NCBI RefSeq assembly: GCF_000739655.1
Contig: NZ_BATR01000002.1
Span: 1-64,000 of the forward strand
From: Verrucomicrobium sp. BvORR106
Lineage (GTDB): Bacteria; Verrucomicrobiota; Verrucomicrobiia; Verrucomicrobiales; Verrucomicrobiaceae
Direction: 5' to 3'
DNA: 64,000 bases
A model generated the notes under the pieces. The model was not told the DNA's origin. It was given only the letters and a program-made list of their open reading frames with translations, and ran no database searches. Below are positions 1-37,753 of this stretch, in pieces (the first letter of the stretch is position 1; every line of letters begins with the position of its first letter). A program made the translations under genes and the position numbers.

Positions 1-156
1 GGTTGGAGTACCGCTTTCAAGCGGAAGGCGCGCTGTCGCTGAAGTTGCCCACGCGTAAAGCGTCCGGCCGACTGGCGATCGCTTGGGCGTCCTGGGGATA
101 GATGGACGTCATGGGACGTGCGGGGTGTGCTTCCGCTTGAAAGCGGTACTCCAACC
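1..156. repeat. REPIN-like inverted repeat pair with GGTTGGAGTACC linker
   Basis: A perfect 27-bp inverted repeat has its arms at 1-27 and 130-156 with 102 bp between them. Each arm carries the linker GGTTGGAGTACC followed by the small hairpin CCGCTT-TC-AAGCGG. The left arm starts at the window edge, so the repeat may continue outside. A third, single copy of the linker lies at 7310-7333 with a different stem. Two REP-like units in opposite orientation about 100 bp apart is the REPIN layout known from other bacteria; the link to a RAYT transposase is inference. The rest of 1-302 shows no gene. Confidence 0.7.
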
Positions 157-302
157 TCGGCGCGAACCCTGTGGGGACACGAGTCCTCACATCGCCCTGC
201 TGATGCCCTGGCAACAACCGCCTGCCTCACCAATCCCTCCCCACCCCTGACCTCAGATCTTGTGTCTTCCAATCTCGTGTCTCCCGCGCAGCGGGCCCGC
301 CC

Positions 303-680
303 CTACGCTGCAAAACTCTCGCCACACGAGCAGGTCACCACGGCGTTCGGGTTCTTCACTTTGAATCCGCCGCTCTGGAGGTCGTCGCTGTAGTCCAGCT
401 CACTCCCAGAGACGAACAGGGCGCTTTTGGGATCGATCACCACGCGCACATCGCTGGAGATCACCATGATGTCGCGGTTGGCCGGGCCATCCACGAGGTC
501 CATCTTGTACTGCAACCCTGAGCAGCCGCCGCCCACCACCGCAATCCGCAGCGCCCCGTGCTCGGCGCGACCCTGCTTCTTCAACAGCCCCAGCAGCCTG
601 TCCGAGGCATTCGGCAGGATCTTGATCAGCTTTTCATTGCCGATCTTGTAGGTAGGTGGGGCTGGTGCAGGCGCGGACAT
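303..680 (-). CDS. HesB/IscA/ErpA-type iron-sulfur cluster carrier
   Basis: This 125-residue protein belongs to the A-type carriers, which hold Fe-S clusters or iron and pass them to apo-proteins in the cytosol. The three family cysteines are visible: one in GGGCSGLQY in the middle and two in the C-terminal CSCGESF. The N-terminus has an Ala/Pro-rich tail not typical of the core fold. The ATG at 680 was chosen over an upstream TTG at 695. No other isc or suf gene is next to it, so it cannot be called IscA, SufA or ErpA by context. It reads in the same direction as the helicase gene upstream, about 175 bp away. Confidence 0.9.
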   Translation of the reverse strand: MSAPAPAPPTYKIGNEKLIKILPNASDRLLGLLKKQGRAEHGALRIAVVGGGCSGLQYKMDLVDGPANRDIMVISSDVRVVIDPKSALFVSGSELDYSDDLQSGGFKVKNPNAVVTCSCGESFAA

Positions 681-724
681 GGGAGGCGGGGACAAAAGCT
701 ATCGTAGCATGGATACGGGCAGCG

Positions 725-850
725 GGAAGTCGCAGAGTGAAAAGTGGCAAGTAAAAAGTGAAAAGTCGGGCTCCATACTGACCCGCCCCCCCTTTGCTGC
801 CCCCGGCAGCCACTTCACTTTTCACTCTTAACTTTTTACTTTTCACTGCT
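725..850. repeat. Imperfect A-rich inverted repeat between helicase and Fe-S carrier genes
   Basis: Positions about 733-772 contain GTGAAAAGTGGCAAGTAAAA-type sequence and positions about 811-849 its imperfect reverse complement with ACTTTTTACTTTTCACT. The pair could form a long imperfect stem in the transcript after the helicase stop codon. It lacks a compact GC stem plus T-run, so a standard intrinsic terminator is not claimed. Confidence 0.5.
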
Positions 851-855
851 GTTCA

Positions 856-2853
856 TCACGAGATCTGCCTCCGCAGGGACGCAAAGAAATCCGCCGCGTC
901 CTCCGGGCTCAGCTCTTCCTTCATGTGCGCCGCATGGTCGAAGATTTCGACGTGCTTCTTGTCCAGCTCCTTGAGGAAACTGCTGGGCATGCACGTCTGC
1001 TTCTGGCCCCACTTCATCCGGTAGCGGCAGTGACTCAGCGTGAGGCGGCGCATGGCGCGGGTGATCCCCACGTAGAAGAGGCGGCGCTCCTCATCCTTGG
1101 TGCCTTCTTCGATGGAGCGCTTGTGCGGCAGGATCCCCTCCTCCAGACCTGGCAGCCACACGATGGGGAATTCCAGCCCCTTGGAGGCGTGCATGGTGAT
1201 GAGGCACACGCCGGTCTTCTTCGTGATGTCGTCCTTCTCCTCGCGATCATCGTTGAGGCTGGTCTCATCCAGGAAGTCCTGGAGGCTGCCCTTGTTATCG
1301 CGTTCATCGAACCATGTGAGGGATTGCTTGAGCATCTTCAGGCCGATCTCCCAGTTCTCCACATCCGTGGGCGTCTTCGCCAGCTTGCCCAAGTAGTCGC
1401 GATACCCGATCTCCACGATGACCTTCTCCGCCAGCGGGGCCAGCTCCACCATGGGCTGGGCCGCATGCGCCTTGAAGAGGTCGATCTGATCGATGAAATT
1501 ACCCACCAGCAACTGCATGCGCTGGGAGAGCTTTGCCTGGAAGGCCGAATCCTTGAGCGCCGCGTAGATGCTCGTCCGCTTCTCGATCGAATGATCCCGC
1601 GCCAGATCCGCCGTGCTGGTGCCGATGCCGCGGGTGGGCGTGTTCAGGATGCGCAGCAGGCTCACATCGTCATCCGGGTTCGCCATCACGTGCAGATAGG
1701 CGAGGATGTCCTTCACCTCGCGACGGTCAAAGAAGCTCCGAGCGCCCACGATGCGGTACGGGATCTTCTTTTTGCGGAACTCGCTTTCCAGAATGCGGCT
1801 CTGGTCATTGGTGCGGAAGAGCACCGCCATGTCATCGAACTTGTCGCCCTTGCGGTTGGCCTCCAGCATCTCATCACAGATGAGCTCCGCCTCCTCCTTA
1901 TCATCCTCCGCCAGGACCAGACGCACGGGATTGGAGCCCGCATTCTGGCTCCACAGGCTCTTGGGCCGGCGTCCGACGTTGTTCTTGATCAGGCTGTTTG
2001 CCGTGTGGAGGATCGGCGTAGTACTGCGGTAGTTCTCCTCCAGCTTGATGACCTTCGCCCCGGGGAAGAAGGACTCGAATTCGTTGATGTTCGTGATGTC
2101 CGCCCCGCGCCAGCCGTAGATGGACTGGTCGTCATCACCCACCACGCAGATGTTGTACGGCTTGGCCACCAGCGCGCGCAGCAGTCGCATCTGCAGGGTG
2201 TTCGTATCCTGGAACTCATCCACCATCGCGTACCGCAGCTTCTGCTGCACCTGCTTGCGCACGTCCTCATGCTCCTCCAGCAGCTCCACCGCCTTCAGCA
2301 GCAGATCGTCGAAGTCCATCGCGTTCAGCGCGCGCAACTCATCCGTGTACAGCTGCAGCAGGGCGGCATCCAGGCTCTGCGCGGCATCGCCCAGGGAGAT
2401 GCCGTAGTTCTTGGCCTTGCTGATGCGGCTGAGCGCCACGTTCGCATCCAGCGACTCCTCCTTGGTCATGAGGCGCGCCAGGATCTTCTTCACCAGACTG
2501 ACCTGCTCACTCTGGCTGTAGATGCTGAAGTTCGTCTTGTAGCCGATCGCCTCCGCATGCACCCGCAACAGCTTCATGCAGAACGCGTGGAACGTGCCCA
2601 GTGTGATGTCCTTGCCCTTCGCCGGCCCAAGCATGTCCTTCACACGCTCGCGCATTTCATTCGCCGCCTTGTTCGTGAAGGTCACGGAAAGGATGTTCGA
2701 TGGCGAGATGCCCTCATCCACCATGTGGGCGATGCGCATGGTCACCGTACGCGTCTTCCCCGTGCCCGCCCCAGCCAGGATCAATACCGGGCCGTGGATG
2801 GTCTTGACGGCTTCACGTTGCGGCAGATTGAGCTGGTCGAAGGCGAAGGACAT
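856..2853 (-). CDS. pcrA: UvrD/PcrA/Rep-type superfamily 1 DNA helicase
   Basis: This 665-residue protein is a 3'-5' SF1A DNA helicase used in repair and replication restart. Motifs appear in order: Q-motif LNLPQREAV near residue 8, Walker A AGAGTGKT at 27-34, Walker B DEFQDTN, motif III VVGDDDQSIYGWRGAD, motif IV region LEENYRST, MHASKGLEFPIVWLPG, and motif VI YVGITRAMRRL near the C-terminus. The length is close to Rep and shorter than typical PcrA/UvrD, and the Tudor-like tail of PcrA/UvrD is not apparent. I use the ATG at 2853; an upstream in-frame start at 2913 would add 20 residues unlike the family. PcrA, UvrD and Rep cannot be told apart with certainty here. Confidence 0.93.
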   Translation of the reverse strand: MSFAFDQLNLPQREAVKTIHGPVLILAGAGTGKTRTVTMRIAHMVDEGISPSNILSVTFTNKAANEMRERVKDMLGPAKGKDITLGTFHAFCMKLLRVHAEAIGYKTNFSIYSQSEQVSLVKKILARLMTKEESLDANVALSRISKAKNYGISLGDAAQSLDAALLQLYTDELRALNAMDFDDLLLKAVELLEEHEDVRKQVQQKLRYAMVDEFQDTNTLQMRLLRALVAKPYNICVVGDDDQSIYGWRGADITNINEFESFFPGAKVIKLEENYRSTTPILHTANSLIKNNVGRRPKSLWSQNAGSNPVRLVLAEDDKEEAELICDEMLEANRKGDKFDDMAVLFRTNDQSRILESEFRKKKIPYRIVGARSFFDRREVKDILAYLHVMANPDDDVSLLRILNTPTRGIGTSTADLARDHSIEKRTSIYAALKDSAFQAKLSQRMQLLVGNFIDQIDLFKAHAAQPMVELAPLAEKVIVEIGYRDYLGKLAKTPTDVENWEIGLKMLKQSLTWFDERDNKGSLQDFLDETSLNDDREEKDDITKKTGVCLITMHASKGLEFPIVWLPGLEEGILPHKRSIEEGTKDEERRLFYVGITRAMRRLTLSHCRYRMKWGQKQTCMPSSFLKELDKKHVEIFDHAAHMKEELSPEDAADFFASLRRQIS

Positions 2854-3001
2854 GAGCGGGCAAAAATTGGGGGCGCGAAGAATGGGCGACAGAACAAAAA
2901 CTTCAAATACCAAACTTCAATCTTCAAACTCGAAACAGGATCCAGGGGGCAAGCCACCCATGCTGGATGCTCGATCCGCGCCAATCCGCATTCCTCACTC
3001 C

Positions 3002-4195
3002 CTAGCTCGTGCGCAGGCCCAGCTTGCGCCAGTCTGCCAGCACCTGGGGATAGATCTGGTGCTCCACCGTGTGGATGCGCTCCAGCACCGCATCCGCCGT
3101 ATCGCCGATGTGGATCGGCACCGCCCCCTGCGCGAGGATGCGGCCGCCATCAATCTCTGCATTCACCAGGTGCACCGTCGCCCCGGTCTCCAGCTCGCCC
3201 TCCTCCAGTGCCTGCACCCAGGCCTCCTTGCCCTTGTACTTGGGCAGCAGGGAGGGGTGCACATTGACAATGCGGTCCGCGAACTCTGAAAGCAGCGGCT
3301 CCTTCAGCACGCGCATGAAGCCTGCCAGCACCACCACCTGCACGTCGTGCCGCTTCAGGTGATCGCAAATCTCCTTCTGCGCGCTGGCCGGGAGCTTCCA
3401 GCCCGCGCCACCCGCGTCCACGTGGATCGTGTTCAGCCCCGCCTCCCGGGCCTTGCGGAGAATGCGCGACTCCGCATGATCAGAGATCACGACGCGGATG
3501 TCCGCCTCCAGGTGCCCCTCAGCGATCGCGCGATGGATCGCCTCGAAATTGCTGCCGTGACCTGAGCCCAGGATGCCAATGCGCAACGGGCCCGACTCAG
3601 AGGCAGGATTCACCGGCAACGCCACCGCGCCCCCGGTCACCACCGTTCCCGCCGGCGCACCGCCTTGGACGGCTGCTGCCACTGCCAGCTCCCCTTCTTT
3701 CGCGCGCTTCAGCGTCGCCGTGGTGGAGCGGCCTGGCACCAGCGGCAGGATCTGGATGTCCGCACCCACCTTGTCCAGCGCCGCTTTCTCCTCAGGATTC
3801 AGCGTTTCCACCGTGTAGTCACCGCCTTTGGCGTACACATGCGGGGCGATCGCCTCGATCAGCTTCGTCACGCGGGGATCGTCGAACTTCACCACCGCGT
3901 TCACACTCTCCAGCCCCATCAGGATCTCCGCGCGATCCTCCTCCGTGTTCACCGGCCGGCTCGGCCCCTTCAGCTCCCGCACCGAAGAGTCAGAATTCAG
4001 CGCCACCACCAGGGCATCCCCCAGCGCGCGCGCCTGGCGCAGGTAGCGCACGTGGCCCGCGTGCAGCAGGTCGAAGCACCCGTTCGTGAACACCAGCTTC
4101 TGCCCAAGTGCCTCAAGCTGAGCCCGGAACTCCCTCACCTGATCCACCGTACAGAGCCAGGTTTCGGGTTCGAAGTCTTGCAAGGGATCGGTCAT
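3002..4195 (-). CDS. purN: Fusion: HldE-type nucleotidyltransferase + phosphoribosylglycinamide formyltransferase (PurN)
   Basis: One 397-residue frame joins two enzymes. Residues about 20-165 are a cytidylyltransferase-fold domain like the HldE C-terminal (RfaE2) ADP-heptose adenylyltransferase, with FTNGCFDLLHAGH (HxGH at 45-48), AKGGDYTVE and a late RSTT motif. Residues 204-397 are PurN, which formylates GAR in purine synthesis: GSGHGSNFEAI near the start, and the catalytic Asn, His, Asp expected from E. coli PurN at 311, 313 (NVHPSLLP) and 349 (EIDGG). An Ala/Gly/Val-rich linker lies between. Both halves keep their motifs, so both are probably active. The fusion links LPS heptose activation to purine synthesis in one polypeptide, and I know no standard example. 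The frame is continuous through the linker. Confidence 0.9.
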   Translation of the reverse strand: MTDPLQDFEPETWLCTVDQVREFRAQLEALGQKLVFTNGCFDLLHAGHVRYLRQARALGDALVVALNSDSSVRELKGPSRPVNTEEDRAEILMGLESVNAVVKFDDPRVTKLIEAIAPHVYAKGGDYTVETLNPEEKAALDKVGADIQILPLVPGRSTTATLKRAKEGELAVAAAVQGGAPAGTVVTGGAVALPVNPASESGPLRIGILGSGHGSNFEAIHRAIAEGHLEADIRVVISDHAESRILRKAREAGLNTIHVDAGGAGWKLPASAQKEICDHLKRHDVQVVVLAGFMRVLKEPLLSEFADRIVNVHPSLLPKYKGKEAWVQALEEGELETGATVHLVNAEIDGGRILAQGAVPIHIGDTADAVLERIHTVEHQIYPQVLADWRKLGLRTS

Positions 4196-4542
4196 GGGTG
4201 GCGGTGGCAGCGGTGGGTCCAGGGTGGAAGGAAATTGGGGGCCGCTATACTGCCGCAGGATGGGGCGAGTTCAAGCTTCGGTCGTTCAGTAATCCGGCAG
4301 CCCGGTAAACCCGCCCGAGAGGGCCAGTGCGGCGCCGTCTAGACTTGCCCTTGCCAACTACCACACCCGCCACACGACCTCCCCCCGGAATTCATCATGC
4401 CTTCGTCTCAAGCCCACCAGGTTCCATGAAACTCTTCGCCACCAGATCCATCACTCCATCTTCCCAGCATGCACTAAGAACCTCGCAATTTCCCCCGTAA
4501 AGCTTTCTCCTCACCACTCCCTACCCCGGGACATGTCTTGTC
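4196..4542. other. Divergent intergenic region, 347 bp
   Basis: This gap separates the minus-strand fusion gene and the plus-strand cytochrome c gene, so it should hold both promoters. I see no convincing -10/-35 pair, riboswitch or RNA gene. No strong Shine-Dalgarno is visible before either start. Confidence 0.4.
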
Positions 4543-7227
4543 ATGATGAAAGTGAACGTGAAAGCCACAGCCCCCACCCGCCTCCTCGTCACGCTGCTCC
4601 TCGCGGCAGCTCCCGTCATGCGGGCAGCGGAGCTGAAGCCCAAGCCCGACCCTTTCTTCGAGCCCGGTTTCCCCTTCTACCAGACCAAGGTGGACCTCAC
4701 CGTGCCCGGCGGGCCGCTGGCGCAGAACTTCGCCGTGCGCGGCCTCGTGCTGCCACTCGCGGAGGGCATCGTGGTCGCGTTTGATCAGGACCTGCTCCGC
4801 ATCGCCGGCATCTGGACCGCGCCGCAGAACCAGCCGCTGGTGACCCAGATGAACATGGCGCAGATCTCCTACGCCCGGCCGCATGACAAGGCCGGCGCCC
4901 AGCACTCCAAGCCCACCGGCACCATCTCCTTCCCCACCGCGCTCAAGCCCGGCATTGCCACCACGGCAGAGGCCCTGAAGACCGATCCCCGCAAGCCTAA
5001 TGCCACCAGCGATCTGGGCCGCGGCCCTCTGCCGGATGCCCACGGCCGCTTCCTGGGCATCGAGGATTGCGGCACCACCGCCGTGCTGCACTACCGCGTG
5101 GGTCAGACTCAGGTGCGGGAGTGGCATGAGGTGAGCACCCTCGCCGGTCAGACCGTCATTCTGCGTCACTTCGCCATCGAGCCCGGGAAGCAGACCACCG
5201 CCCAGCCCCTGCATTTCGCCATCGGCCCTGCCGCCTGGTTGGCTCCTACTACCCGCCTCGCCACCAGCCCCACCCCGGAGGGCGGGCAGCTTGCCGTCGC
5301 CACCAATTCGGATGCCCTGAAGCTCGCGGCGCAGAACGGCGAGCTCACCGCCACCTACATCCCCGCCCCAGGCGGGAAGGAGCACCGCTTCACCATCGCG
5401 CTCGCGCCCGAGGCCGCAGACGCCACCTCCCTGGCCGGCCAGATCGGCGCGACCCCGCCCGTCCCCACACCGGGAAAATCCCGCCGCTGGCCCGAAGCCA
5501 TCACCACCGCCGGCACCACCAGCAGCGTCAAGGCCAACGGCCTCGCCCTCGACCTCCTGGCCCTGCCGGAGACGAACCCCTGGAAACGCCGTGTGCGCGC
5601 CGCGGACATTGGTTTCCTCGCACCCGACCGCGCCGCCGTGCTCACCTATGACGGGGACGTGTGGCTCGCCGAGGGCGTCCAGTCGCCCGGCCTCGAGCGC
5701 GTCACCTGGCACCGCTTCGCCTCCGGCCTGCATGAATCCCTCGCCCTCGCCATCGTGGAGGACGGCGTGGTGCAGGTCGCCACCAAGAACGGCCTCGTGC
5801 GCCTGCGGGATCGAGACCATAACGGCGAGGCCGACTGGTATGAGAACTTCAGCGACGCCATGCGCCAGAGCCAGTCCTCCCGCTCCTTCCCGCTGGACAT
5901 GGACCTCGGCCCCGATGGTGCCACCTATATCTCCCAGGGCGGCATCCCCATGGGCGGCGGCGGCACCTCCTTCCTCGGCAGCGTCGCCCGCATCAGCCCG
6001 GACGGCCGCACCGCAGACATCATCTCCACCGGCGCGCGGGAGCCCTACGTCACCGTGCACCCGCAGACCGGCCTCATCACCGGCACCGATCAGCAGGGCA
6101 CCTTCATCCCCTCCTCCGTCAGCTACCTCATCCGCCCCGCCGATCACTTCGGCTTCAATGAAGAGAAGCCCGCCAAGCTCACCTCGCCCCTCGTCTGGAT
6201 CCCCCACACCGAGGACAACTCCTGCGCCTCCCAGGTCTGGCTTACAGGAAACAAGTTCGGCCCCCTCGCCGGTCAGCTCCTGCACCTCTCCTACGGCAAC
6301 GGCGGCCTTTTCCTCATCAGCCCCGATCTCGATGCCCCCGTGCCCCAGGGTGCCTTCATCCCCCTCGGCATCGATACCAAGATCCCCATCCTGCAGGGCC
6401 GCCTCCAGCCCGACGGCGCCGCCACCTGGCTCGCCGGCTTTCAAATTTACGACTCCCGCGCCCCCCAGCTCCAGGCCCTCGGCCGCCTCCGCCTCAGCGG
6501 CGATCCCGTCGCCAGCCCCATCTCTGCCAAATCGTGCGCCGATGGCGTGATCCTGAACTTCGCATCCCCGCTCCAGGCCGACAGCGTGCGCGCTGAGCAG
6601 GTCACCGCCCAGTCCTGGAACTACCTCCGCTCCAAGGCCTACGGCAGCGGCCGCTATCGCAAAGACGGCACCGCCGGCATGGACCCCGTCGGCGTCTCCC
6701 AGGCCGTTGTTTCCAAGGACCGCCGCTCTGTCTTCATCCACCTGCCCGGGCTCGGCCCCGTCATGCAGCTCGAGGTGCGGCACACCTTCAAGCTCGAAAA
6801 CGGCACCCCCGCAGAAGGCGTGACCTACTTCACCATCCACCAGCCCCACGCCGTGAACCTCGCCCAGAGCGGCTTCCCCAGCGTCGACCTCACCAAGACC
6901 GACATCGTCTCCCGCCCGCAGATCGAAGGCCTCCCCACCGAGGCCTTGGGCAAGGTCCTCAGCACCACCCTCGGCTGCATCGCCTGCCACTCCGTCGATG
7001 GCACCAAGGAAGGCAAGACCGGTCCCACCTGGAAAGGCCTCTTCGGCATCGAGCGCGAATTCGCCGACGGCTCCCAGGAGTCCGCCAACGAGTTTTACCT
7101 CCGCGACTCCATCCTCAACCCCCAGCGCAAGATCGTCAAAGGCTACCTCCCCGGCATGGCCAGCTACAAAGGCGTTCTCACGGATGCCCAGATCGAGTCG
7201 TTGATCCTGTACATCCGGAGCTTGTAG
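4543..7227 (+). CDS. Exported DUF6797-like protein with C-terminal cytochrome c domain
   Basis: This 894-residue protein begins with a signal peptide (hydrophobic stretch about residues 13-25, cleavage near ARA/AEL), so it should act in the periplasm or outside. The N-terminal part (FPFYQTKVDLTVPG, then a region on how a quantity looks or is reached) resembles DUF6797 proteins of Verrucomicrobiota and Planctomycetota. The middle resembles a beta-propeller-like glucose/sorbosone dehydrogenase type region. The C-terminus is a class I cytochrome c domain: CIACH at 812-816 and a likely axial Met at 872 (PGMASYKG), then a final helix. The usual inference is an electron-accepting domain on a carbohydrate-active or dehydrogenase-like protein, but the substrate is unknown. 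A second start codon lies one codon downstream. Confidence 0.85.
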   Translation: MMKVNVKATAPTRLLVTLLLAAAPVMRAAELKPKPDPFFEPGFPFYQTKVDLTVPGGPLAQNFAVRGLVLPLAEGIVVAFDQDLLRIAGIWTAPQNQPLVTQMNMAQISYARPHDKAGAQHSKPTGTISFPTALKPGIATTAEALKTDPRKPNATSDLGRGPLPDAHGRFLGIEDCGTTAVLHYRVGQTQVREWHEVSTLAGQTVILRHFAIEPGKQTTAQPLHFAIGPAAWLAPTTRLATSPTPEGGQLAVATNSDALKLAAQNGELTATYIPAPGGKEHRFTIALAPEAADATSLAGQIGATPPVPTPGKSRRWPEAITTAGTTSSVKANGLALDLLALPETNPWKRRVRAADIGFLAPDRAAVLTYDGDVWLAEGVQSPGLERVTWHRFASGLHESLALAIVEDGVVQVATKNGLVRLRDRDHNGEADWYENFSDAMRQSQSSRSFPLDMDLGPDGATYISQGGIPMGGGGTSFLGSVARISPDGRTADIISTGAREPYVTVHPQTGLITGTDQQGTFIPSSVSYLIRPADHFGFNEEKPAKLTSPLVWIPHTEDNSCASQVWLTGNKFGPLAGQLLHLSYGNGGLFLISPDLDAPVPQGAFIPLGIDTKIPILQGRLQPDGAATWLAGFQIYDSRAPQLQALGRLRLSGDPVASPISAKSCADGVILNFASPLQADSVRAEQVTAQSWNYLRSKAYGSGRYRKDGTAGMDPVGVSQAVVSKDRRSVFIHLPGLGPVMQLEVRHTFKLENGTPAEGVTYFTIHQPHAVNLAQSGFPSVDLTKTDIVSRPQIEGLPTEALGKVLSTTLGCIACHSVDGTKEGKTGPTWKGLFGIEREFADGSQESANEFYLRDSILNPQRKIVKGYLPGMASYKGVLTDAQIESLILYIRSL

Positions 7228-7558
7228 GCGGGTGCGAGTTGGAGTTCTCCGGGAAGTCACATGAGCAGGGCGGGAAATCGTGAAAAACCTCCACCAAGGC
7301 TCGCGCCAGGGTTGGAGTACCGTCTTTAGACGGCTCGCGCCACTTTCCTCGCACCGCGACCTGCCCACCCACCAGCATCGCCACCCCCACCGCGCCCGCC
7401 CAACCAGGAACTACGAACCTCTCCCCCCTTTCATGAGGGCCAACGGCCCGGCCTCATACCAGCCCAGGGCAACGCCCTGGGACTGACAGTTCAAAATAAA
7501 ATCTGAGGACTGAAGGCCCGACGTCATTCAACGTGCGCCCCTCCGACACCAGTCTGCT
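7228..7558. repeat. Intergenic region with one GGTTGGAGTACC hairpin unit
   Basis: Linker GGTTGGAGTAC at 7310-7320 is followed by the hairpin CCGTCT-TT-AGACGG ending at 7333. It is the same unit as at 1-27 but with a different, still paired, stem. The remainder of the gap shows no gene. The flanking genes converge here, so a terminator would be expected, but none of the classical type is obvious. Confidence 0.6.
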
Positions 7559-13507: not shown

Positions 13508-13870
13508 CCATGAAACTCACAAGCTCCACCAAAGCGGCGGTTCCCGCGCGCACTCCCAAAGCGACTTCGTCGCCAGGTGTTATTTCCTTTGTGACTCCGG
13601 CCACACCTCAGGCCTACAACATCGGAGGTCGATTGAATGCTCTCACTCCCAAGAACTCACGCCCCCTGGATGCGAAGCATCTTTGGAGTGCGCGAGGGAA
13701 CCGCCGCTTTCGCCACGACTTGTGACTTCCTAAAACCACAGCCCTCCAGCGAAGCTAACGTTCATCAGTATCGCAAGGGATCGCCGCACCCGAACCCGGA
13801 GGGCTACCACTGGACCACATCCCCCTGCCGATCTACCGCGCAGCGGTAGGCCCATCGCATGGCAAGCCCC
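13508..13870. repeat. Composite repeat, copy A (REPIN-like)
   Basis: A repeat of about 360 bp shares long blocks with 15706-16062. Inverted arms are 13531-13561 (AAAGCGGCGGTTCCC...) and 13681-13710 (ending GGAACCGCCGCTTT). Inside is the hairpin GCGAC-TTC-GTCGC at 13561-13573 followed by CAGGTG, and near the end CTACCGC-GCA-GCGGTAG at 13833-13849. The shared blocks include ACTCCCAAGAACTCACG and a TTGGAGTGCGCG block. No gene is present in 13038-13880. Confidence 0.75.
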
Positions 13871-15705: not shown

Positions 15706-16062
15706 GATGCTCACAAGCTCCACCAAAGCGGCGGTTCCCGCACGCAATTATAGTCCCGCAAGCGGGACCAGGTGTTGTACCCTTCATGGCTCAAGCTCAC
15801 ACCTCAGGCCTCTGACATCGGAGGCCGAGTAGTTACTCTTACTCCCAAGAACTCACGCCCCCTGGATGCGAAGCATCTTTGGAGTGCGCGCGGGAACCGC
15901 CGCTTTCGCCACACCTTGTGACTTCCTGAAACCTTAACTCTTCCAGCGAAACCCACCGTCCTCGATCCAACAAGATGTCGCAACGTACGCCTTCCGTGCT
16001 CACTGGACCACGCCCGACTGCCGATCTACCGCGCAGCGGTAGGCCCATCGCATGGCAAGCCC
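15706..16062. repeat. Composite repeat, copy B (REPIN-like)
   Basis: It matches copy A (13508-13870) in blocks, with inverted arms at about 15725-15745 and 15877-15906. In place of GCGAC-TTC-GTCGC it has GTCCCGC-AAG-CGGGAC at 15753-15768, again followed by CAGGTG. It ends with the same CTACCGC-GCA-GCGGTAG hairpin at 16026-16042. Confidence 0.75.
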
Positions 16063-16208: not shown

Positions 16209-16230
16209 ATGAGATAACATCACCCATTCC

Positions 16231-16372
16231 TCCACCACTCCACCACTCCACCACTCCACCACTCCACCACTCCACCACTCCACCACTCCACCACTCCACC
16301 ACTCCACCACTCCACCACTCCACCACTCCACCACTCCACCACTCCACCACTCCACCACTCCACCACTCCACC
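16231..16372. repeat. 9-bp minisatellite, unit CACCACTCC
   Basis: About 15.7 near-perfect copies of a 9-bp unit. On one strand it would encode a Pro/Leu/His/Thr repeat, but no real gene start or context supports coding. Copy number is likely to vary between strains because of replication slippage. Confidence 0.95.
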
Positions 16373-36586: not shown

Positions 36587-37753
36587 ATGACTTCAGTTCC
36601 CTTGGCCAGCTCCATGCCCCCCAGCTCCACCCAGCGAGCATACTTCCTCCTCGACTCGCTCGAATTCGCGCATGGCACAGAAATGCTGGCCATGATCTTG
36701 GCTGGCGAGCTAAAGAAAATTGGATGGGAAGTGAGTGTCTTCACGGCAGAGTACACCCCCTCGTCTTCCACTTGGGCGGAGTTCCTGCATCAAAGCTCCA
36801 TCCCCATCTATCGGCCGCCTGTACGGATTTTGCGGAGATATTTGCTTCCCCACCGGTTGATCGTTTCAAAACTCTGGCGGCGAGCCGCCCACTCTCCGCC
36901 TACGCTTGTTTGGTCTCCCACCAATGATATCCTCACATGTGTAGCGCTGCACGCCAAACCCGAAAACGCAGTTCCTTTCTTCGTGCATGATCCTAGTGAG
37001 GCGGGGCCTGCATGTCCTCACTACCAGCCCCTGTGGTTTAAGGTTTGCAATTCGGTTACAGCGCTTTCGGTACACGGCGAGCGTCAGCGCCAATCCGCCA
37101 TCTCGTATTACAAAATGGAACGGCCTGTCGATGTCGTAAGGCCCAGCACTTTCCCGCCATCCCGGGTTCATCCGTTGAAGCTCACAGGCGGGCGGATGCG
37201 TTTCGGGCAATTTGGACGTCTGGCCACGATGAAGGGATCTCTCTTTGCAGTCGCCGCTCTTGCTGACTGCGTTAATCGGGGAGGGGATGCAGAACTTCAT
37301 TTTCACGGGGATGGACCGATGAAAGCTGTGACCCAGGAACTGGCCTTCAGCCTAGGCCTCAGAGACCGCGTGTTCTTTCACGGAAGCTACCTTCCCAGCC
37401 AGCTGGATGATCTGGTCAACAGCATCGATGTCAGCATCATGCCATCCACTTACGAGGGCTTTGGCCTGGTCATGCTCGAGTTACTGTCACGTGGCCGGGC
37501 CGTCATCGCCTCAGACGTGGGTAGCAGCAGGGAGATCCTAGGCGACTCCCGAGCCGGCTGGGTCGTCCCCCGCGCCAACACCACCGCTCTGGCAGATGCC
37601 ATGCTCTATTGCTGCACGCATCCCGAAGAAACATTGGCAAGAGCCAATCAAGGCCCGGAACTCTGGAAGGCCAACTACACGCCGGAGAAAATGGCCGCCC
37701 GGTACTTGAATTTCTGGGAGCAGAATGGCACGCCTGGAGCCCGCCGCATCTAG
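36587..37753 (+). CDS. Glycosyltransferase family 4 (GT-B fold)
   Basis: A 388-residue retaining glycosyltransferase of GT4 type. The N-terminal half shows the acceptor-binding LDSLEFAHGTEML motif, and the C-terminal half has FGQFGRLATMKGS and the nucleotide-sugar EGFGLVMLELLSRGRAVIASDVG. The sugar is unknown. The ATG at 36587 is chosen; upstream residues are not conserved. Confidence 0.88.
   Translation: MTSVPLASSMPPSSTQRAYFLLDSLEFAHGTEMLAMILAGELKKIGWEVSVFTAEYTPSSSTWAEFLHQSSIPIYRPPVRILRRYLLPHRLIVSKLWRRAAHSPPTLVWSPTNDILTCVALHAKPENAVPFFVHDPSEAGPACPHYQPLWFKVCNSVTALSVHGERQRQSAISYYKMERPVDVVRPSTFPPSRVHPLKLTGGRMRFGQFGRLATMKGSLFAVAALADCVNRGGDAELHFHGDGPMKAVTQELAFSLGLRDRVFFHGSYLPSQLDDLVNSIDVSIMPSTYEGFGLVMLELLSRGRAVIASDVGSSREILGDSRAGWVVPRANTTALADAMLYCCTHPEETLARANQGPELWKANYTPEKMAARYLNFWEQNGTPGARRI

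Follow-up and report, generated by a model that had tools for sequence, protein, structure and literature searches.

The window analysed here, the whole stretch of 64,000 nucleotides at positions 1-64000 of contig C208 in the assembly of Verrucomicrobium sp. BvORR106 (G000; 8,693,933 bases in 209 contigs), carries three copies of a short palindromic repeat. Very probably these are repetitive extragenic palindromic (REP) elements, occurring mostly as inverted pairs (REP doublets forming hairpins, REPINs), of a family that bears the tag GGAG and is spread, or was formerly spread, by a cognate HUH/Y1 REP-associated tyrosine transposase (RAYT, or TnpAREP) encoded on contig C26. The 12-mer GGTTGGAGTACC, named a linker in an earlier sequence-only reading, was found exactly at 1-12 (+), 145-156 (-) and 7310-7321 (+), with no further site in the window at up to one mismatch; this exceeds chance, as shuffled windows held 0.17 matches on average and one at most. 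The same reading had a stem follow the linker, and that architecture holds, but the boundary has to be moved, because the 3' end of GGTTGGAGTACC falls inside the stem: the string parses as GGTT, the tag GGAG, the spacer TA and then CC, with which the stem begins. The elements of the window are the following.

1..30 (+): REP copy 1, 32.6 bits; tag GGAG at 5-8, spacer TA at 9-10, stem CCGCTT-TC-AAGCGG at 11-24 (arms 11-16 and 19-24, loop TC at 17-18)
127..164 (-): REP copy 2, 44.3 bits; tag GGAG at 152-149, spacer at 148-147, stem arms 146-141 and 138-133, loop 140-139; CCGCTT-TC-AAGCGG as in copy 1, inverted at 133-146
1..156: REPIN formed by copies 1 and 2 in inverted orientation; arms 1-27 and 130-156 (27 bp, 100% complementary) with 102 nt between them
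7302..7339 (+): REP copy 3, single, 53.8 bits; tag GGAG at 7314-7317, spacer TA at 7318-7319, stem CCGTCT-TT-AGACGG at 7320-7333 (arms 7320-7325 and 7328-7333, loop TT)

Copy 1 is truncated at its 5' side and has no upstream flank, since position 1 is the first base of the contig. The 27-bp inverted repeat is exact, as the sequence-only reading had it, and the two paired stem changes that it described were likewise confirmed: all three stems pair perfectly, and copy 3 departs from copies 1 and 2 at pairs 4 and 5, in both arms. The REPIN is intergenic, downstream of an open reading frame (ORF) at 303-695 (-), the product of which we take to resemble A-type iron-sulfur proteins, and copy 3 starts 74 bp past the stop of the ORF at 4543-7227 (+). 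When folded as single-stranded DNA, positions 1-150 reach -46 kcal/mol as compared to a shuffled mean of -26.7 (z -6.9); the fold energies of the short hairpins alone are unremarkable (z -1.8 and -0.5), and the evidence for these hairpins is their repetition, not their folding energy.

Across the genome the exact 12-mer occurs 54 times, as opposed to 2 times for a reversed control, and 42 of the 54 copies have a perfect 6-bp stem at the expected spacing. A covariance model (R1) was built from 44 of them, 41 being distinct, with one copy lacking upstream DNA and nine incompletely paired ones left out. Run on the genome, with 150 of 4386 candidates scored and a threshold of 20 bits, this model of 41 copies returned at least 139 family members, which is a lower bound; 137 of them could be anchored for reading tag, spacer and stem. 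The layout consists of the tag GGAG (135 copies; GTAG and GGAT once each), a two-base spacer (TA 64, TT 63, other 10), a 6-bp stem and the tip TT or TC. Perfect stems are present in 114 anchored copies and comprise seven sequences (CCGCCT 41, CCGACT 27, CCGCGT 18, CCGCTT 14, CCGCAT 12, CCGTCT 1 and CAGACT 1). Mismatched stems, which would speak against compensation, do exist elsewhere in the genome, though as a minority only: 12 copies have one non-Watson-Crick position (G-T in 4) and one has two, so that 13 of the 137 carry one or two mispairs (5 of the 13 including a G-T), and 10 have at least four unpaired positions, being of other stem lengths or decayed.

A simple codon-based gene model places 131 of the 139 copies between genes, 7 within coding sequence and 1 at an edge, and 2495 random stretches fall 504 intergenic, 1927 coding and 64 edge under the same model; the model is rough, because two of the seven "coding" copies are the doublet lying just past the stop of the RAYT gene. 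Where both neighbours were called, the flanking genes are convergent in 52 cases, tandem in 56 and divergent in 6 (for comparison, the 26 window gaps of at least 60 bp are convergent 3, tandem 19, divergent 4). Copies less than 250 bp apart are mostly inverted (43/47; 26 -+, 17 +-, 4 ++, 0 --), and such close inverted pairs of REPs are what defines a REPIN. Of the 32 inverted doublets in which both stems are perfect, 24 have the same stem in both arms (mean of 5000 shuffles 11.0, maximum 20). In the congener G067 the repeats are also found as tandem arrays, with periods of 251, 297, 437, 469 and 293 bp.

The link to a transposase came from a planctomycete genome (G068), in which four tandem copies lie within 140 bp upstream of an ORF (locus L263) scoring 75.9 bits with REP_Tyr_transpos (NF047646). 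A tblastn search with its product, which covered the collected loci, found repeat-adjacent ORFs of 50-52% identity in BvORR106 (L004), G067 (L148) and G065 (L198), the last of which we take to be Verrucomicrobium sp. BvORR034. The sequence-only reading had proposed a search for RAYT-type genes elsewhere in the genome, and two genes of this clade are now known from BvORR106.

C26:37570-38175 (-): RAYT of 201 aa, adjoined by a repeat doublet; outside the window, on another contig of the same genome
C203:11120-11710: second RAYT of the clade (row L306), 55% identical to the G067 query

The doublet starts 7 bp past the stop of the C26 gene, with copies at 37525-37562 (+) and 37462-37499 (-). The RAYT gene itself sits 7 bp after another ORF, presumably encoding an alpha-2-macroglobulin-like protein, and this order of ORF, RAYT and repeats is common to BvORR106, G065 and G067. 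In the rows L276, L277 and L278 the flanking hairpins are at +24 and +97 from the last RAYT codon. The curated NF047646 cut-off is 80 bits and both BvORR106 proteins exceed it (C26 80.6, C203 80.9). A four-member RAYT profile had one sole match in the PDB at E <=0.1, the E. coli TnpAREP structure 4er8 (E 2.5e-6), and the alignment equates W94, E100, H101, R104 and Y115 of the latter with W129, E134, T135, K138 and Y149 of the C26 protein. Repeats flanking the C203 gene read GGAG-TA-CAGACT and GGAG-TC-CAGGCT. Since in three Verrucomicrobium genomes a doublet immediately follows a diverged RAYT of the NF047646 type, and four copies stand beside the planctomycete one, the repeats are best regarded as a REP/REPIN family with a cognate RAYT.

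The enzyme and the repeat are distributed alike in the 68 genomes of the family. RAYT matches of at least 74% identity occur in G000, G065 and G067 only, and the exact linkers number 54, 80 and 109 in these three, compared to one or two in eight of the other 65 genomes and none in 57. The congener G066 (incomplete, 76%) has neither a RAYT match at that level nor the repeat, and among the 64 family genomes of other genera 8 have one or two linkers and 56 none. In a scan of the wider collection the pattern was seen in BvORR034, three planctomycete metagenome-assembled genomes (MAGs), one Verrucomicrobia MAG and once in Shewanella; the Shewanella match was not counted, because by our own estimate about one chance match is expected in the collection. 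A genus-restricted repeat, suggested by the family counts, was dropped as a general statement, as the pattern is present in the planctomycete MAGs. A viral scan gave three records; two of them, IMG/VR L217 and L218, match bacterial contigs in size (16095 bp of BvORR034 and 32240 bp of C131) and therefore give no evidence of carriage by phages. Relatives of the Verrucomicrobium RAYT in G019, G022, G023 and G026 (L293, L286, L284, L282) had no flanking hairpin of this architecture in the scanned DNA; perhaps these RAYTs have lost their repeats.

How such a family would move can be outlined from studies of the E. coli, Stenotrophomonas and Marinomonas TnpAREP (PMC8266576), and we infer the mobility of the GGAG family by analogy with them. 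The RAYT would bind the single-stranded hairpin, reading tag and loop, and would cleave near the hairpin foot, which would let REPs recombine and spread while the DNA is single-stranded. The stem would need to pair and its sequence would be largely free; that only pairing is demanded would explain why the stems vary in a paired way and the tag is nearly fixed.

That the stems vary under pairing is evident from several counts. The sequence-only reading had claimed a constant linker with a variable, compensated stem, and its proposed check on all genomic copies agrees: in the four inner pairs of the 54 linker copies, 187 of 216 cells are Watson-Crick (shuffled mean 137.5, maximum 156 in 2000 shuffles). 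The 20 distinct stems give 55/80 vs 39.4, a count that no shuffle in 5000 attained, and the 32 different stem-loops of 14 bases have 140 paired cells out of 192 (shuffled mean 116.7, maximum 129). A covariation test on the 41 model rows, which had already been selected for pairing, scored 0.354 vs 0.085 when shuffled; two pairs vary on both sides, and four of the five measures lie above most or all of the shuffled values. The fifth, the count of such doubly changed pairs (2), is no higher than expected, since 419 of 500 shuffles reach it.

Comparison of sites shared with BvORR034 or G067 adds a different aspect. Among 30 ungapped alignments the stem is the same in 25; two, which come from the repeat-rich region C124/L179, show a single pair altered in both arms, one has one paired and one one-sided change, and two have one one-sided change. 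The C124 region and L179 are both very rich in repeats, and their copies differ in number, surroundings and stem. A further 10 alignments are gapped (some sites occur in more than one alignment), and three of these are exchanges of the whole stem tip, CCG-CTTTTAAG-CGG vs CCG-TCCCGCATGCGGGA-CGG and similar, with tag and flanks kept. Two have clean surroundings, C118:15984 vs L166 (84.7%, 543 bp) and C141:91871 vs L210 (80.2%, 192 bp), and the third, C124:12867 vs L179, is in the repeat-rich region. The site C64:62339 may be another such swap; it lies among repeats and was left out of the count. As stems are mostly kept at shared sites and the most distinct changes in place exchange the whole tip, compensatory point changes explain only part of the stem variation. 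The variety seems to consist of old subfamilies together with occasional tip replacement, and the in-place tip exchanges may have been left by a RAYT that replaced one REP with another.

Several results weigh against a RAYT-driven REP family. By definition, REPs carry a 5' tetranucleotide GT[A/G]G and a downstream palindrome, occur in many copies almost exclusively between genes and flank a RAYT (PMC3686654). In the GGAG family the palindrome is downstream of the tag (perfect in 114/137) and the many copies are intergenic (131 of at least 139), but the tag itself is GGAG in 135 of 137 and thus outside GT[A/G]G. RAYT-flanking copies were sought both upstream and downstream in PMC3686654; here, within the DNA that could be inspected, they stand on the downstream side only in L276, L277 and L278, and upstream in L263, where little of the contig is left beyond the gene. 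The G067 ortholog (74.3 bits) and the planctomycete protein remain below the NF047646 cut-off. Pfam Y1_Tnp (PF01797) has 18 matches in the BvORR106 genome and 77 in the genus (four genomes), and at 39 of the 77 loci, including all 18 of BvORR106, the repeat flanked none (best 13.6 bits); the search of the BvORR106 genome also missed the C26 gene. Recent movement was not apparent: no clean empty site was found, in a sample biased by the choice of most compared loci as copy-bearing, and shared sites mostly keep their copies. The orphan REP family that the 0/39 count had suggested was dropped once tblastn with the planctomycete RAYT had uncovered the genes on C26 and in G065 and G067. A Pfam Y1_Tnp search can thus miss the cognate enzyme, and a repeat family then falsely looks orphaned.

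Four other explanations were weighed. The palindromes could be RNA elements, terminators or 3'-end stabilisers, kept for mRNA function, with the paired changes due to selection on RNA; the intergenic position, the rarity between divergent genes (6/114) and the G-T pairs in 4 of the 12 copies with one non-Watson-Crick position would suit this. The 137 anchored copies have no T run past the stem as an intrinsic terminator would, the commonest next bases being CTC (42), TCA (30), GTC (12), AAT (9) and TGA (7), Rfam gave no family at its threshold in the window, conservation is higher in the unpaired tag than in the stem, the tag agrees with that of the RAYT-flanking repeats, and G067 has tandem arrays, all of which makes an RNA role quite improbable. 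Just as little weight falls on genuinely mobile repeats moved by another enzyme, with the C26 RAYT a mere neighbour. The BvORR106 genome does have the 18 other Y1_Tnp matches, and REPs of the CGTC type are said to be without a dedicated transposase (PMC3733652); against this, one RAYT lineage adjoins the GGAG repeat in three species as well as in a planctomycete, the tags follow the RAYT tree, and the genus has several further RAYT-like genes with their own flanking palindromes.

A more serious competitor, which we consider a real possibility although somewhat short of an even chance, is that the paired changes arose from palindrome-perfecting DNA synthesis (template switching) or conversion between copies, with no selection for pairing. 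The in-place differences of whole tips between species (C118/L166, C141/L210, C124/L179) and the tendency of doublet arms to share a stem are what it would produce. It leaves the fixed unpaired tag and the adjoining RAYT unexplained; moreover, it concerns the variation of stems, not the identity of the element, and is compatible with GGAG-tagged REPs spread by the C26 RAYT. Integron attC or other recombination sites also combine a variable hairpin with a constant flank, but the arm order GTTGGAG...CTCCAAC is the reverse of the attC order and the copies are dispersed between genes; this origin is extremely improbable, although no search aimed at an integrase was made.

We compared 76 RAYTs, namely all 33 matches from the family that were better than 1e-56, the planctomycete protein and 42 of 43 further matches (one in G324 was left out), and called a tag where at least two flanking hairpins shared it. 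This was so for 50; the 26 uncalled ones lacked a hairpin, did not have two hairpins agreeing in tag, or carried other tags (for example L381, L335 and L387, as well as L320 and L334, which have GGAG with one extra spacer base). H89 and H91 (HUH) and Y149, the counterpart of Y115, occur without exception in the 50 tag-called rows and are present in 24, 26 and 26 of the remaining 26. The scan used one hairpin form (a 6-bp stem tipped by T-TT-A or T-TC-A and separated by two bases from the preceding tag), and the shared form is in part built in; a freer scan of the first 34 loci, allowing any tip of 2-4 bases, gave the same form. Such hairpins are present at 30 of the first 34 loci. The called tags are GTAG (28), GGAG (16), GTTG (5) and GGTG (1), and they need 5 changes on the RAYT tree, compared to a shuffled mean of 18.9 and a minimum of 14 (300 shuffles), the tree being a quick one with many weak forks.

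Among 201 positions, the best single-residue separator of G from T at the second tag base is position 134 (E. coli E100), with D in 33/33 GT.G members and E in 13/17 GG.G members; the exceptions have D (C203, its BvORR034 relative L307, and L313) or P (one). Positions 138, 135 and 130 rank 4, 10 and 11. W94, Q95, E100, H101 and R104 of E. coli TnpAREP are named in the discussion of GTAG-guide recognition (PMC6006769), and four of these five residues align with the eleven top separating positions. The match was found post hoc, not predicted beforehand, related RAYT rows are not independent, and the independent contrasts (2 on well supported branches, 3 on all) are too few for significance. Because E. 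coli combines E100 with GTAG, the residue at 134 cannot by itself determine the tag in RAYTs at large, and its association with the tag is a lead drawn from aligned sequences. Tentatively, and with less assurance than we grant to template switching or conversion, the clade may have switched its guide-tag specificity several times (GTAG, GGAG, GTTG, GGTG) through tag-contacting residues, notably D->E at E. coli E100, with the repeats following and the tip exchanges being RAYT-mediated replacement. Since what is known of repeat recognition by RAYTs and of the joint change of repeat and enzyme rests on few tested systems, the clade is of use as a natural series of related RAYTs with one repeat architecture, different tags and a short list of candidate residues.

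Other repeats were observed as well. A palindrome of another family, CCCAGGGC-AAC-GCCCTGGG, lies at 7463-7481, 123 bp past the end of copy 3. Six palindromes of this type surround a different RAYT-like gene, C123:23506-23847, within 1.5 kb, and the type also surrounds a RAYT-like gene in G067 (L127), so that two repeat families stand side by side in the window. Six other Y1_Tnp genes of BvORR106, on C106, C46, C53, C123, C29 and C43 (L035, L037, L038, L033, L041, L044), have palindromes of their own on both sides and are parallel RAYT-repeat pairs in one genome. Inverted near-identical repeats TTTGGAGTGCG...CCGCCGCTTT at 13531-13710 and 15725-15906 are probably the first repeat family of the sequence-only reading. 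About 18 head-to-tail copies of the octamer CTCCACCA occupy 16230-16372.

As to known systems, REPs are not new in Verrucomicrobia, because earlier work described GTAG repeats in O. terrae, which belongs to this phylum (PMC3733652). In the literature searched, seen in part, there was no report of GGAG-tagged REPs in Verrucomicrobium, and the linker string appeared only in two unrelated papers. The degenerate second tag positions described in PMC3733652 are pyrimidines. The CGTC REPs of the same paper are likewise tagged intergenic palindromes in dimers, but their tag is another one, absent from the 137 anchored copies, and the GGAG family has a cognate transposase. Among the REPs tabulated in PMC2817692, those tipped by CTTYAG, for instance in Haemophilus influenzae and Thioalkalivibrio sp. 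HL-EbGR7, have the same tip, CTTCAG or CTTTAG; unlike in the GGAG family, their GTAG is directly at the foot of a longer stem. The C26 RAYT resembles NF047646 and E. coli TnpAREP (4ER8) in the HUH motif, the position of the catalytic Tyr, the flanking palindromes and the sequence match; at the E100, H101 and R104 positions it reads E, T and K, whereas 33/33 GTAG/GTTG clade members read D, R and R, as does the C203 RAYT even though it is flanked by GGAG. Closest are the short REPs of group 3/subclass 2.5 TnpAREP, above all REPMb of Marinomonas sp. MWYL1 (PMC8266576) and GTAG-1/GTAG-2 (PMC3733652). These share with the GGAG family the tetranucleotide tag, two unpaired bases and a short perfect stem, as well as inverted doublets, tandem clusters and sub-families with alternative paired stem bases; the tip is closed by T..A in REPMb (loop TTTA) and in the GGAG family (T-TT-A or T-TC-A). 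They differ in that the tag is GGAG and not GTAG/GTGG, and the spacer TA/TT and not GW. Judged by sequence, the family is thus best described as a GGAG-tagged variant of the RAYT-associated REPs.

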